From an uncultured Lachnospiraceae bacterium (GTDB lineage Bacteria; Bacillota; Clostridia; Lachnospirales; Lachnospiraceae): 49,906 bases of DNA. Below are positions 29,937 to 49,906 of the stretch, piece by piece. The position numbers and the translations under genes are program-made. The notes beneath the pieces were generated by a model, which saw only the letters and a list, made by a program, of their open reading frames with translations, searched no databases and was not told where the DNA came from. How positions within the stretch are numbered: position 1 is the stretch's first letter; the number at the start of each line of letters is the position of its first letter. The stretch spans positions 1-49,906 of the forward strand of contig CAMNJZ010000006.1 in NCBI GenBank assembly GCA_946541955.1. Direction: 5' to 3'.

Positions 29937-32897
29937 TTATGCCTTTGTCTTTCCCTTGCGGGCAGCGTCCCGCTCCAGCATCTTGTGAATATAGTAGCCG
30001 GTATAGGAGGCATGGTTCCTGGCCACTTCCTCAGGGGTGCCGGCCGCGATCACGGTGCCGCCGCCGTCTCCCCCCTCGGGGCCCATGTCAATGATATAGT
30101 CTGCGGTCTTGATGACGTCCAGGTTGTGCTCGATCACCACCACGGTGTTGCCGCCTTCCACCAGCTTGTGGAGGATGCCCACCAGCTTGGCCACGTCGTC
30201 GAAATGCAGACCGGTGGTGGGCTCGTCCAGGATATAGATGGTCCGGCCTGTGCTCTTTCTGGAGAGCTCGGCCGCCAGCTTGATCCTCTGGGCTTCGCCT
30301 CCGGAGAGCTCGGTGGAGGGCTGGCCCAGCTTGACATAGCCCAGGCCCACGTCGTAGAGGGTCTGGATCTTTCTTGCGATGGAGGGCACGTTCCTGAAGA
30401 AGTCCACGGCCTCCTCCACGGTCATGTTCAGGACGTCGTAGATGCTCTTGCCCTTGTATTTGACCTCCAGGGTCTCCCGGTTGTAGCGCCTGCCGTGGCA
30501 GACCTCACAGGGGACATAGACGTCTGAGAGGAAGTGCATTTCGATCTTGATGATGCCGTCGCCCCGGCAGGATTCGCAGCGGCCGCCCTTGACGTTGAAG
30601 GAAAAGCGGCCCTTGCTGTAGCCTCTGGCCTTGGCGTCCGCCGTGGAAGCAAAGAGGTCCCGGATCATGTCGAAGACGCCGGTATAGGTGGCCGGATTGG
30701 ACCGGGGGGTCCTGCCGATGGGAGACTGGTCGATGTCGATGACCTTGTCCAGCTGGTCCAGGCCTTCGATCCCGTCATGCTTTCCGGGAACGGTCAGGGC
30801 CCGGTTCAGGTCATGGTTGAGGCGCTTGTTGAGGATCTCGTTGACCAGGGAGCTCTTGCCGGATCCCGAGACCCCGGTGACCGCCGTCATGACACCCAGG
30901 GGGAAGGAAACGTCGATGTGCTTTAAGTTATTGACAGCCGCCCCCTTCACAGTCAGCCAGCCCTGGGGCTGCCTTCTGGTCTCGGGCACGGGAATGAACT
31001 TCTTGCCGGACAGGTACTGGCCCGTCACGGATTCAGGCACCTCCATGATCTCCCGGGCCGTGCCCTGGGCAACGACCTGGCCGCCCCGGGAGCCGGCCCC
31101 GGGACCGATGTCCACGATATAGTCGGCTGCCAGCATGGTGTCCTCGTCGTGCTCCACCACCAGGACCGTATTCCACAGATCCCGCAGGTTCTTGAGGGTC
31201 CTTAGCAGCTTGTCGTTGTCTCTCTGGTGGAGACCGATGGAGGGCTCGTCCAGGATATAGCAGACGCCCACCAGGCCCGACCCGATCTGGGTGGCCAGGC
31301 GGATCCGCTGGGCCTCGCCGCCGGACAAAGTGGCCGTGGCTCTGGCCAGGGTCAGATAGTCCAGGCCCACGTCGATCAGGAAGGTGACCCGGGACCGGAT
31401 CTCCTTGAGGATCTGCCTGCCGATCAGCTCCTGGGTCTTTGTCAGTTCCAGAGTCTCCATGAATTCCTGAAGCTTTCCGATGGACAGGCAGGTCAGGTCA
31501 TAGATATTCATGCCGCCCACGGTGACGGCCAGGGACTCCCTGCGCAGGCGCTTCCCCTTGCAGGTATTGCAGGGCGTGATCTGCATGAATTTCTCATATT
31601 CCTGCTTGGCGGATTCGGAGTAGGTCTCCTTATAGCGGTTCTGGACGTTTTTGATGAGGCCCTCGAAGGCGATGGGATAGACGCCCTCGCCCCGCTGTCC
31701 CTTGTAATGGACGTTGACCTTCCGGTCCGTGCCGTAGAGGATGAGGTTCTTAATGTCTTCCGGATAGTCCTGGAAGGGGGTGTCGAGGGAAAAACCGAAG
31801 TCCTCCGCCATGGCCTTGAGCAGCTGGTTGGAGAAGGACCCGTCCCGGTTGGCGGACTGCCAGCCCATGACGGCAATGGCTCCCTCGTTGATGGACAGAC
31901 GGCCGTCGGGGATCAGGAGCCTGGGATCGAACTCCATGCGGTAGCCAAGGCCCACGCAGTCGGGGCAGGCGCCGAAGGGGTTGTTGAAGGAGAAGCTCCT
32001 GGGCTCGATCTCGGGAATGCTGGTGCCGCAGTTCGGGCAGGCGAAGTTCTGGCTGAACTGACGCATGCTGCCGCCTACCACGTCCACCTGGAGAAGGCCG
32101 TCGGCCAGGGCCAGGGCGTTCTCCACCGAATCCGTCAGTCTTCTTTCGATGCCGGGCCTGACGATCAGGCGGTCCACGACCACTTCAATGTTGTGCTTGA
32201 GGTTCTTGTCCAGCTTGATCTCCTCGGAGATATCATACTGGCTGCCGTCGATGCGCAGGCGGACATAGCCGGCCTTTCTGGCCCGGTCGATGACCTTGGT
32301 GTGTTCGCCCTTGCGGCCCCGGACAACGGGGGCCAGGATCTGGAACCTTGTCCCTTCCTCCAGGCTCATGATCTGGTCCACCATCTGGTCCACACTCTGG
32401 CGGGAGATCTCTCTGCCGCAGCCCGGGCAGTGGGGGATCCCGATCCTGGCGTAGAGGAGACGGAAGTAGTCATAGATTTCCGTCACGGTGCCCACAGTGG
32501 ACCTGGGGTTGCGGTTGGTGGATTTCTGGTCGATGGAGATGGCGGGGGAGAGTCCGTCGATCTTCTCCACATCCGGCTTTTCCATCTGGCCCAGGAACTG
32601 TCTGGCGTAGGAGGACAGGGATTCCATGTAGCGGCGCTGTCCCTCGGCGTAGATGGTATCGAAGGCCAGGGAGGACTTGCCGCTGCCGGAAAGGCCTGTC
32701 ATGACCACCAGCTCGTTCCGGGGGATGCGGAGGTCTATGTTCTTGAGGTTATGCTCGCTGGCGCCCTTGATCCGGATACAGTCCTCGGGATTGATCATCT
32801 TGCGGCGCAGCTCATCTGCCTTATGGGATTCCTTGGCCAGGCGCTCGTTCTCGCGCAGAGCCGGCCAGTAGTCGGGTTTCTTTATTTTAACTGCCAT
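29937..32897 (-). CDS. uvrA: Excinuclease ABC subunit A
   Basis: 986 residues, with AGAAGGAAATAT before the ATG. UvrA is the damage-sensing ATPase of nucleotide excision repair. Two ABC modules are seen: the first Walker [10 protein letters not shown] at 68-76, with its signature [14 protein letters not shown] later in the same half, and the second GVSGSGKSS, with [16 protein letters not shown]. Zinc sites are CPGCG, CPNC...CPDC, and CESCRG...CEVCHG. About 35 extra residues precede the usual start ([16 protein letters not shown]). The good ribosome site supports this longer form. Confidence 0.96.
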
Positions 32898-32992
32898 ATA
32901 TTTCCTTCTGTGATGTACTGAAAATGGTGTGTTGAAGCTGGGAGCGCTCAGAGGGAGGTTTGAACAATGGGACGCCCGGGGAGGCTGCCGGG
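32898..32992. other. Leader between the tandem repeat and uvrA
   Basis: 95 bases upstream of uvrA, with no clear -35/-10 pair. The only feature seen is the uvrA ribosome site. Confidence 0.5.
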
Positions 32993-33368
32993 CATGACTC
33001 CTGCACTTAGCTCCGGCGCGGGCGGCCGGAAGGGTCCTGCGGCCCTCGGCCCGCCCCGGTACTTCATGGTTCGGAGCGCCAGCGAACGAAGCATGTTAGT
33101 ACCGCTGGCCCGGGCCATGGAGCGAAAGCGTGCCGCTGACCCTCCGGATGGCTAAGCCGGACATGACTCCTGCACTTAGCACCGGCGCGGGCGGCCGGAA
33201 GGGTCCTGCGGCCCTCGGCCCGCCCCGGTACTTCATGGTTCGGAGCGCCAGCGAACGAAGCATGTTAGTACCGCTGGCCCGGGCCATGGAGCGAAAGCGT
33301 GCCGCTGACCCTCCGGATGGCTAAGCCGGACTTGACTCCTGCACTTAGCTCCGCGCGCGGGCGGCCGG
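32993..33368. repeat. 169-bp GC-rich tandem repeat between uvrB and uvrA
   Basis: Copy 1 (32993-33161) and copy 2 (33162-33330) are the same length and differ at one base seen by eye (T to A at unit position 20). A degenerate third copy breaks off at about 33368. Each unit can fold: GGGCGGCC pairs with GGCCCGCCC (33020-33056 in copy 1), then CGGTACT pairs with AGTACCG around a smaller TTCG/CGAA stem (33057-33104), then the palindrome GGCCCGGGCC. Because 169 is not a multiple of three, it cannot encode an in-frame repeat protein. No transposase is nearby. Confidence 0.92.
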
Positions 33369-33390
33369 GCCTGACAGCAGGTCCTGAATT

Positions 33391-35385
33391 CTACTTGCCG
33401 CCTTCGATGGCCAGGAGATGCTTCTTGAGGTCGATCATCTGGTCACGCAGCTCGGCGGCCGCTTCGAAGTTGAGGTCGGTGGCGGCCCGTTTCATCTTCT
33501 TCTCCACGTCTGCAATAAGGTTTCTGAGTTCGCCTGCATCCATGGACTCGGGATCCTTGGCGAAGCGGACCTCCTCCCTGGCGATCTCCTTTGAGATGGC
33601 GATGAGGTCCCTTACCTTCTTTTTGATGGTCTGGGGGGTGATGCCGTGTTCGTCGTTATAGGCCTGCTGGATGGCCCGTCTTCTTTTGGTCTCATCGATG
33701 GCCCGTTTCATGGAATCGGTCATGTTGTCGGCATACATGATGACGTGGCCTTCGGCGTTTCTGGCCGCCCGGCCGATGGTCTGGACCAGGGAGGTCTCGG
33801 ACCGCAGGAACCCTTCCTTGTCGGCGTCCAGGATGACCACCAGGGCGATTTCGGGGATATCCAGGCCCTCCCGCAGGAGGTTGATGCCCACCAGGACGTC
33901 GAAGACGTCCAGGCGCATGTCCCGGATGATCTCGGACCGTTCCAGGGTGTCGATGTCCGAATGGAGATAGCGGACCCGGATGCCCGCTTCCTGCAGGTAG
34001 TCGGTCAGGTCCTCGGCCATCTTCTTGGTCAGGGTGGTGACCAGGACCTTGTTGCCGCCTGCCACAGTCTGCCGGATCTCCCCGATCAGGTCGTCGATCT
34101 GGCCCTCCACGGGGCGGACGTCGATCTCCGGATCCAGAAGGCCTGTGGGCCGGATGACCTGCTCGGCCCGGAGGAGCTCGTGCTCCTCCTCGTAGGCGGC
34201 AGGAGTGGCCGATACGAAGAGCATCTGGTCGATATGCTGCTCAAATTCCTCAAAGCTCAGGGGCCGGTTGTCCAGGGCCGAGGGCAGGCGGAAGCCATAA
34301 TCCACCAGGGTGGTCTTGCGGGACCTGTCTCCGTGGTACATGGCGCCGATCTGGGGAATGGTCATGTGGGACTCGTCCACGATGATCAGATAGCCGCCCT
34401 CAAAGAAGTCCATGAGGGTCAGGGGCGGGGCGCCCGGCGGCATGAAGTTGAGGTGGCGGGAGTAGTTTTCGATTCCGGAGCAGAAGCCCGTCTCCCGCAT
34501 CATTTCGATATCAAAGTTGGTCCGCTCGGAAATACGCTGGGCCTCCAGAAGCTTGTCCTCCCCCTTGAAGAAGCGGATCCGCTCCTGGAGCTCCTCCTCG
34601 ATGTTGTCGCATGCTTTGTTGATCTTCTCCTGAGGAACAACGTAGTGGGAGGCCGGGTAGATCATGACGTGTTCCAGGGTGGCATGGAGGCGGCCCGTGA
34701 GCTGCTCCACCTGGCAGATCCTGTCGATCTCATCGCCGAACCACTCCACCCGGATCAGGTAATCTCCGCCCTGGGCCGGGCAGATCTCCAGGGTGTCGCC
34801 CCGGACCCGGAAGTTGGACCGGTCAAGCACTGCGTCATTCCGGGTATACTGGGTGGCGATCAGTTCCTTGATCACCTCGTCCCGGTCCTTGGCCATGCCG
34901 GGCCGGAGGGAGATGGACATGCCCTTGAATTCCTCGGGGCTGCCCAGGCCGTAGATGCAGGATACGGAGGCCACGACGATGACGTCTCTGCGCTCCGCCA
35001 GAGAAGCGGTGGCAGACAGGCGAAGCTTGTCGATCTCGTCGTTGATGGCCGAATCCTTGGCAATATAGGTGTCGCTGGAGGGGACATAGGCCTCCGGCTG
35101 ATAGTAATCATAGTAGGAAACAAAGTATTCCACCGCGTTCTCCGGGAAGAATTCCTTCATTTCTCCGTAGAGCTGGCCGGCCAGGGTCTTGTTGTGGGAA
35201 ATGATCAGGGTGGGCTTGTTCAGGGCCGCGATGATGTTGGCCATGGTGAAGGTCTTGCCGGATCCGGTCACTCCCAGCAGGGTCTCGAACTGGTTGCCCT
35301 CCTGAAAGCCTCTGACCAGGGCCTCGATGGCCTGGGGCTGGTCGCCCGTCGGTTTATATTCGGAATGCAGAACAAAATGATCCAT
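33391..35385 (-). CDS. uvrB: Excinuclease ABC subunit B
   Basis: 664 residues from the ATG at 35385, with GGAGGAGAGT upstream. UvrB verifies damage and recruits UvrC in nucleotide excision repair. It has Walker A GVTGSGKT (38-45), the beta-hairpin region [18 protein letters not shown], and helicase motifs including [10 protein letters not shown] and QTIGRAARN. The C-terminal UVR motif is [18 protein letters not shown] LexA-like box lies about 80 bases upstream. It is followed by the tandem repeat and uvrA. Confidence 0.97.
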
Positions 35386-35464
35386 ACTCTCCTCCGCTTT
35401 GTCCAAGGCCCCCGGGGTGTGCCTTCGGGCAGGATCTGCGCGATGTCATTGCCTTCTTTTCTTT

Positions 35465-48127: not shown

Positions 48128-49906
48128 CTATGCCCCCTCCTCCGGGGCAGGCTCCTTTTCCTCTGTTTCTTCTTCCCCGGCCGGTTCTTCATCCGCCTCA
48201 TCCGGCAGGGCTTCTGTCTCCCTGACAGGCTCTTCGGCTTCCTCATCCGGCAGGGCTTCTGTCTCTCTGACAGGCTCTTCGGCTTCCTCTCCCGGCAGGG
48301 CTTCTGTCTCCCTGACAGGCTCCCCGGCTTCCTCTCCCGGCAGGGCTTCCTCCTCCTGGCCCGCCGTAAACAGCTTCATGCCAAAGCCTTCTTCCAGCGG
48401 CTCCCCGGGCTCCGTGATGGTCATGACATTGTCGGTATAGGAAATGTCATAGTTGGATTCCCTGCCGCTCAGGAAGGTCAGCTCCGGCTCCACAGTATAT
48501 ACGCCGACTTCTGTATAGGACCCTTCCGTGAGCTTGATTCTGCACCCCGGCAGGCTGAACAGGGCTGTCACAGACGAGGGGACATCCCATTCATATCCGA
48601 TGTCTTCGCTTTCGTTCTCGATCCATTCTCCCTGGCAGAGACAGCGGATGCCCTCCGCCAAGAAGGGGCCTCCGTAGTATTCCGCCTCAAAGCAGCCCAG
48701 AGAGAAGACAAGGGGCAGGGGATCCACCGTCAGAACGCCCAGTTCCTCCTTAACCGTATAGTTGGCCGCATTGGTATCGCCCCAGTCAAGGGTATAGGTA
48801 TTGGCAGCGCTTCCTGCGTCCGTCCTTGTCCCTGCAGCCTGCAGGGTAATGGCGTCAGTTTCCATCAGGCCGTCTGCTTCCGCATCAGCCTGGGTCAGCG
48901 GGGTCCCATCAAAGACCTTTCTGGCAGAGCCGGTGCGGATGGTCAGGGGCGCCGGCGTAATGGTCAGGGCCGTATTGGTAAAGCGGAAGGAAACGCCGGC
49001 GGCTGTCGAAGCGATCCGGTCCGGCTCCAGGGTATATTCGCCTGCATCCTTCCTGCCAGAAAGATCCAGGCTGAGTCTTCCGTTTTTCAGCTGGAATTCC
49101 ACATGGACGCCGACGGGCCTTTCGGATTCATCCAGAAGAAGGCTTTCCTCCTCCTTTACCGCCTCCGTTCCATCGGCATAGGCCGCTGTGATGCCCTCGG
49201 GTATATAGTATTCGCCGCTGTAAACTGCCTCGAAACCGCGCAGGTCGATGACCAGGTCTGTCTTTTTCAGCTCCACCGTGTCATGGATGTAGGAAATCTG
49301 GTAGTTGGATTCCTTTCCCTCCTGAAAAGTCAGCGCGGGCTCCAGGGTATGCTCTCCCTCGCCGGATACGGCGGGGATCTCCATGGTCACCTTTCCTCCC
49401 GGCAGGGTGAAGACCGCTTCCAGATAGGCCAGTTCAAACATGTCATAGTATTCTTCCTCCGAGTCTGCCGCAGCCCCCTCTGTATCTCCAAAGGAGACGG
49501 TCAGGTCTCCGGGGACCCAGGCCGTGTCGGAATCCACGATGTCCGGCGCCTGCAGATCAAAGAGGACCGGCAGGGGGGTGACCTCCAGGGTCCCGGGCAG
49601 GCTGGTCAGGCTGTAGTTGGACGCCTTAACAGCGCCCCAGTCGATGGTGAAGGAATTTTCAGCGCTCCCTGCGTCCGTAACAGAGCCTGTCGCCGTTACA
49701 AGGATCTCGTCATCTCCCTGCAGGCCTGTGATGGTCACCGCCCCTTCTGTCAGGGGACTTCCGTCATAAGACTTTTGGGCAGAGCCTGTTGCTATGGAAA
49801 GGTCCGCCGGCGTAACGGTCAGCGTTCCCAGCTCCTCTGTCAGGACATAGTTGCCCGGGTCCGTATCGCCCCAGTCAATCCTATAGGTATTCTCCGCACT
49901 GCCCGC
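48128..49906 (-). CDS. Repetitive MBG-type surface protein, C-terminal part (cut by window edge)
   Basis: The reading frame is open from the right edge to the stop at 48128, giving at least 592 residues; the start lies beyond. It is built of repeated beta domains, each ending in a segment like AGSAENTYRIDWGDT or AGSAANTYTLDWGDT, then NYxVxxELGxLTVxPL. This pattern resembles MBG domains of bacterial adhesins. The C-terminus is acidic, with four 15-residue repeats (EALPGEEAEEPVRET type). It has no LPxTG motif and no final membrane helix, so the anchoring mode is unclear. Confidence 0.82.
   Translation of the reverse strand, partial: AGSAENTYRIDWGDTDPGNYVLTEELGTLTVTPADLSIATGSAQKSYDGSPLTEGAVTITGLQGDDEILVTATGSVTDAGSAENSFTIDWGAVKASNYSLTSLPGTLEVTPLPVLFDLQAPDIVDSDTAWVPGDLTVSFGDTEGAAADSEEEYYDMFELAYLEAVFTLPGGKVTMEIPAVSGEGEHTLEPALTFQEGKESNYQISYIHDTVELKKTDLVIDLRGFEAVYSGEYYIPEGITAAYADGTEAVKEEESLLLDESERPVGVHVEFQLKNGRLSLDLSGRKDAGEYTLEPDRIASTAAGVSFRFTNTALTITPAPLTIRTGSARKVFDGTPLTQADAEADGLMETDAITLQAAGTRTDAGSAANTYTLDWGDTNAANYTVKEELGVLTVDPLPLVFSLGCFEAEYYGGPFLAEGIRCLCQGEWIENESEDIGYEWDVPSSVTALFSLPGCRIKLTEGSYTEVGVYTVEPELTFLSGRESNYDISYTDNVMTITEPGEPLEEGFGMKLFTAGQEEEALPGEEAGEPVRETEALPGEEAEEPVRETEALPDEEAEEPVRETEALPDEADEEPAGEEETEEKEPAPEEGA
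48198..48352 (-). repeat. 45-bp tandem repeat encoding a 15-residue acidic unit
   Basis: Repeat starts are spaced 45 bases apart: CGGCAGGGCTTC recurs at about 48203, 48248, 48293 and 48338. It encodes EALP(G/D)EEA(G/E)EPVRET near the end of the MBG-type protein. Copies are nearly identical in DNA, so the number may vary between strains. Confidence 0.9.

Follow-up and report, generated by a model that had tools for sequence, protein, structure and literature searches.

The window analysed here, 49,906 nt of DNA from an uncultured Lachnospiraceae bacterium, carries uvrA and uvrB (identified with NCBIfam) separated by an intergenic gap of 493 nt, of which 382 nt are occupied by a tandem array (Table 1). 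Tandem Repeats Finder places the array at 32987–33368, with a period of 169, 2.3 copies, 97% matches, a score of 734 and no indels. An earlier reading, made from the letters of this DNA alone and referred to below as the sequence-only reading, had recognized the 169-bp repeat and its position between the two genes; its start at 32993 was 6 nt late and, contrary to what it stated, the array does not fill the whole gap. The same reading was right that the unit is non-coding: 169 is not a multiple of three, and the ORF list of the window holds no ORF of at least 90 aa contained in the array, while one ORF (33299–33661) overlaps the array end and uvrB. CRISPR had also been dismissed, and is ruled out by the head-to-tail arrangement of the 169-bp units, with no spacers between them.

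Table 1. Positions in the window of the tandem array components and the neighbouring genes
Feature	Position	Strand	Remarks
169-bp unit 1	32987–33155	+	Strand with the GNRA and GA/GA-type motifs
169-bp unit 2	33156–33324	+	99% identical to unit 1
Partial third unit	33325–33368	+	First 44 nt of the unit; 93% identity over the aligned part
Structured core, unit 1	33030–33145	−	Whole-length match to model R1, 54.5 bits
Structured core, unit 2	33199–33314	−	Whole-length match to model R1, 54.5 bits
Central hairpin, unit 1	33057–33104	−	CGGTACTAA ... AGTACCG
Central hairpin, unit 2	33226–33273	−	Hairpin pattern
uvrA	29937–32897	−	NCBIfam; downstream neighbour, outside the element
uvrB	33391–35406	−	NCBIfam; upstream neighbour, outside the element

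Folding of a single unit, which had been proposed as a check, gave modest z-scores (−1.9 on the minus strand and −2.6 on the plus strand); the strong evidence for the fold is comparative. A terminator and promoter scan returned two weak terminator-like sites, both outside the array. At gathering score, no Rfam 15 family matched the window or the searched sets of 6 and 18 loci, and an E-value search of 32900–33450 gave three weak matches, all of them RNA families of animals, the best at E 0.18. In the source genome (G000; 2.24 Mb in 164 contigs, 85% complete), neither blastn nor the structure model R1, described below, listed further copies outside the window array. A second tandem repeat in the window, of 45 bp and 3.4 copies (48196–48349), lies near the C-terminus of a 536-aa minus-strand ORF (48128–49738), in which it encodes acidic repeats of ETEALPGEEAEEPVR type.

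In the five closest alignable relatives, which are 82–88% identical to the window over uvrB, the uvrA–uvrB spacer is 47, 19, 45, 42 and 43 nt long, compared with 493 nt in the window; in the sixth-closest relative, G045, the uvrA side does not align. The comparison covered 29 other loci of the genus, 25 of them alignable on both sides. Among these 25 the spacer ranges from 1 to 731 nt, and the six spacers of more than 200 nt are found in more distant members of the genus. The short spacers of the closest relatives indicate that the array is an insertion specific to this lineage when set against its closest kin; the spacer itself varies across the genus. When the window spacer is set beside those of its relatives, the ends of the element are not definable and no target duplication can be assigned. 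None of the 29 other uvrA–uvrB loci has an R1 match up to E 0.1, which leaves the suggestion that the unit is a processing site between the two messages without support. Spacers of 230–731 nt without an R1 match occur at loci L300, L302, L304, L305, L306 and L308. In G017, another genome of the genus (contig C19, 29974–30080), an R1 match is situated shortly upstream of uvrB, by extrapolation from the uvrB alignment.

Each unit contains a core of about 105 nt, the geometry of which is nearly constant across copies in other genomes. On the window plus strand, the order is an outer stem, a second stem, a CGGTACTT/AGTACCG helix, a variable cap and a CU bulge, and a GNRA-capped mini-hairpin is placed between the outer and second stems on the 3' side. 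The CGGTACT/AGTACCG pairing noticed by the sequence-only reading holds up: it forms the central helix of this family-wide structure, is nearly invariant, and has G+C-rich arms paired around it. Model R1 was derived from a seed alignment (A2) of 22 seeds with equal internal spacing, in which 24 of 33 pairs show two-sided changes and pairing lies above shuffled and slid controls. Running R1 on 100 chosen sources yielded 119 matches, giving an alignment (A3) of 117 distinct sequences with two-sided changes at 31 of the 33 pairs. In A3, 86.7% of cells are paired, compared with 61.6% after shuffling and at most 43.0% after sliding; fitting to the model biases this alignment towards the structure, and related sequences easily exceed shuffles.

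Several motifs recur on the plus strand of 108 non-redundant cores: the GNRA tetraloop in 101 (the script favoured GNRA on ties), the CU bulge (AG on the model strand) in 98, U.U (A.A on the model strand) in 79 and GA/GA (UC/UC on the model strand) in 60. Closing pairs of the mini-hairpin other than GC/GC are found in 10 of 104 closed loops, including AC/GT in four, CC/GG in three and AT/AT in one. Loci collected by pattern force an invariant look on the central helix; the 29 non-redundant rows found by the model alone, which relax this bias in part, contain the CU bulge in 23, U.U in 23 and GA/GA in 12. As RNA, the plus strand gives the more stable fold in 90 of 104 cores (mean −49.2 versus −44.7 kcal/mol for the minus strand), and it is slightly better with DNA parameters as well (77/104). 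In the second stem, G-U exceeds A-C on the minus strand (88 versus 21), and a subfamily sharing one U.G pair is possibly behind this surplus. The outer arms of 85 loci lean the other way (see below), and as such counts conflict between stems, they were not used as proof of strand.

Dispersed R1 matches occur in 21 of the 62 genomes of the same genus and in 108 of the 250 from Lachnospiraceae (the source genome included in both); weak matches are lost under the stricter filters of these scans. A class-wide sample, which doubles as a false-positive control for R1, had matches in 7 of 291 Clostridia genomes, all seven labelled as the source genome or as the same family; the E-values of R1 rest on a short calibration. 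A search of related Clostridia had been advised by the sequence-only reading, with simple local duplication as the fallback if the unit were found nowhere else, and the dispersed matches refute that fallback. With at most 150 candidates scored per genome, 133 matches were found in Eisenbergiella tayi, 124 in Oribacterium sinus, 31 in strain CE91-St56, and 30, 16 and 16 in genomes G741, G147 and G127, respectively. By blastn, weak partial matches to the unit were found in 3 of the other 61 genomes of the genus (nine matches in G059) and in 3 of the other 396 genomes of the family.

A pattern for the central hairpin matched 8 of the 62 same-genus genomes (source genome included). The reversed control pattern matched about a dozen genomes, in one to three places each, so that the hairpin pattern is weak alone and the sequences themselves decide. 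A longer pattern, applied to named genomes, found at least 118 stretches; among the 80 matches listed, all but three were titled Lachnospiraceae or other Clostridia/Bacillota. The three outliers were L101 (Proteobacteria), L104 (Selenomonadaceae) and L118 (Muribaculaceae). L101 was taken as a chance match because it has no R1 match up to E 0.1. L104 and L118, both from metagenome-assembled genomes (MAGs), do match R1, and their cores may reflect MAG contamination or transfer. Phages and plasmids gave no blastn match with either the 169-bp unit or an E. tayi core, and the exact pattern did not occur in viral contigs.

Most copies (111 of 120 distinct ones) are situated outside ORFs of at least 90 aa, as judged with a simple ORF caller. 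The genes flanking 111 copies are oriented same/same in 36 cases, opposite/opposite in 32, convergently in 16 and divergently in 7, and in 20 an ORF is absent on one side. There is no dominant partner gene within 4 kb of the cores. The two largest protein clusters, at 14 and 13 loci, appear from their sequences to be sensor-like and ABC-transporter-like, respectively.

Beyond the core, many elements extend as inverted repeats, here called arms, and some have none. In the best 20 E. tayi copies by score, the arms are 37–119 bp long and differ in sequence by locus; their self-complementarity is 89–100% in 19 copies and 75% in one, some being cut by masked bases. In O. sinus, the arms are paired at 64–83% in 18 of 20 copies, and those of the other two are only 12 nt long, so tight matching is not universal. 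The 5' arms in E. tayi (L351–L370) contain 11.4% A, 34.4% C and 27.2% G, compared with 27.5% A, 27.2% C and 14.0% G outside. Genome G147 has six near-identical cores with different arms. Of two orthologous copies shared by the species of L046 and L135, one shows a compensated arm change, and the other combines a similar core with unrelated yet self-complementary arms. Another copy, in L047 (2300–4200), has near-perfect arms of about 110 nt; its flanks are about 2.9 kb apart in CE91-St56, and no clean empty site was found in other Eisenbergiella genomes.

Homologous arms in CE91-St56 differ by 91 mirrored, 11 one-sided and 3 other changes, summed across the six pairings, not independent of one another, among four copies (four of seven fetched copies passed the boundary patterns). 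The corresponding comparison in E. tayi, in which 16 of 23 copies passed, is weak because arms differing by about half align poorly, and reliance is therefore placed on CE91-St56. Selection for an RNA stem is expected to leave G-U intermediates on one strand. On the plus strand, the numbers of GU and AC mismatches in the arms are 16 and 21 in E. tayi and 49 and 47 in O. sinus; over the outer arms of 85 loci, G-U and A-C number 114 and 81, a weak plus-strand lean (p 0.02). The lack of a clear G-U excess would suggest that one arm is copied from the other at the level of DNA.

In one genome, G457 (the genome of L048), the core moves as a miniature inverted-repeat transposable element (MITE) whose ends are those of an IS4-family transposon. 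The core is carried there in an element of about 189 bp with an 18-bp inverted end, CAATGTCATTAAGTTAAG. A 13-nt piece of this end has 130 forward and 138 reverse matches with one mismatch allowed (10 and 6 for the control), and exact target duplications of 9–10 bp flank 19 of 27 distinct copies, compared with 8 of 702 when the sides were mixed between copies. Locus L271 of the same genome is a 1.7-kb element with an IS4-family transposase and the ends common to the 189-bp copies; the core, however, lies outside the transposase gene, and other genomes show other outer sequences. Terminal inverted repeats common to an autonomous transposon were found in G457 only. No target duplications were seen by eye at the ends of the E. 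tayi arms and, as there is no definable end or duplication in the window either, transposition of the terminal-inverted-repeat type is shown for G457 only. The non-coding part of L271 (1–1821) includes a hairpin that reuses the core motif CGCTCTCGCT, a possible hint as to how the core meets transposon ends. At G457 loci including L064, L071 and L078, the insertions adjoin or interrupt a second palindromic repeat, GTTACTATTCACGGC/GCCGTGAATAGTAAC.

That the array is a palindromic mobile repeat, one of the options offered by the sequence-only reading, is supported by the dispersed copies, the short spacer in the closest relatives and the target duplications in one genome. A local tandem duplication without wider meaning has next to no chance of being the full account: the two near-identical units and the single locus in G000 are what it would predict, but the same fold occurs in more than 100 other genomes and the spacer in the five closest alignable relatives is 19–47 nt. 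Recent duplication, also proposed earlier, fits the tandem array itself. It is very unlikely that the family consists of REP/REPIN-type repeats mobilized by an IS200-like Y1 tyrosine transposase (RAYT). The copies are palindromic, dispersed and mostly intergenic, as such repeats are, but Y1_Tnp (PF01797) is no commoner in genomes with the core (60/108) than in the others (84/142; Fisher p 0.61), on which ground the association was rejected, and no Y1 match was found in 14 of the 31 genomes that had 14 or 15 of 15 scored matches. In addition, core and arms are far longer than the 20–40 bp of REPs, and a terminal GTAG or CGTC tag was not seen by eye in the copies inspected.

The core could instead be a functional RNA, regulatory or involved in processing, that is carried by transposons and owes its covariation to a selected fold. 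This is possible, if somewhat unlikely. The RNA-like motifs (GNRA, U.U and GA/GA) are specific to the window plus strand, which also folds better as RNA in most cores, and to that extent the earlier suggestion of an RNA element has substance. However, the plus strand is also slightly ahead under DNA parameters, G-U intermediates are few and, in the arms of E. tayi and O. sinus, not enriched relative to A-C, Rfam has no match at gathering score in the window and loci searched, and copies occur in both gene orientations without bias (36 same/same, 32 opposite/opposite). If the core inserted at the middle of palindromes already in place, such as terminators, the arms would be target sequence, which would explain both the six G147 copies and the unrelated arms around similar cores at the L046/L135 orthologous site. 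This mode of insertion seems improbable, as the E. tayi arms show, by eye, a shared degenerate consensus and are unlike their flanks in composition (for example in the A content of the 5' arm), the CE91-St56 arms are plainly homologous between loci, and no long palindrome was seen by eye in the short spacers of the window's relatives.

The array is therefore best regarded as a probable lineage-specific insertion of a non-autonomous mobile palindromic repeat that is found across the Lachnospiraceae, with tandem duplication following later. The core may spread by borrowing the ends of different transposons, and the outer arms would then differ by lineage. One arm would be copied repeatedly from the other by replication template switching in the hairpin, at the DNA level, and the arms would stay self-complementary through this arm-to-arm copying rather than through stepwise RNA compensation. 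Quasipalindrome mutagenesis of the template-switch type has reportedly been observed in E. coli. Conservation of the core could be due to recognition of its folded single-stranded form by a putative factor. A more tentative idea, and on present evidence an unlikely one, is that the core acts as a turn-around hairpin in its own propagation, copying of the element remaking one arm by fold-back synthesis on the other, such that the arms are hypervariable yet mirrored and the core is constant. If so, this would be a mobile element defined by its fold and mode of copying, not by its ends.

The structured repeats described here form a large family in common gut bacteria, with more than 100 matches in each of two named strains. 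The arms provide a natural record of inverted-repeat evolution and, since most differences between clearly homologous arms are mirrored, template switching and stepwise compensation can be tested directly against each other. They also serve as a warning that two-sided changes in palindromes do not, by themselves, prove a functional RNA.

A prior description of the family was not found in the literature searched (open-access papers in PMC), although a catalogue of 3161 structured RNAs from human microbiomes (PMC8040213) includes 250 palindromic candidates, one of which could be this family. Template switching is described, in the part of PMC8794818 drawn upon, as maintaining hairpins through single events in which both sides of the stem change together; the arms reported here differ in being long and dispersed, in many copies of one genome. 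REPs, according to the sections of PMC3733652 consulted, are 20–40 bp long with a GTAG or CGTC tag, and REP/REPIN repeats with RAYT resemble the present family as dispersed palindromic hairpins, whereas the elements here are much longer, without such a tag by eye and without association with a Y1 transposase. MITEs and small mobile repeats of the ERIC, YPAL, Correia and RUP types, as covered in the relevant part of a review (PMC2229807), are likewise short, non-coding, palindromic, dispersed, mostly intergenic and non-autonomous. The present family is set apart from these, by description and not by sequence, in having a family-wide structured core, lineage- or locus-specific arms and ends, and mirrored arm evolution. 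It belongs to the known class of non-autonomous mobile palindromic repeats, and is unusual within it for its combination of a structured core shared across the family with changing outer sequences and mirrored arms.
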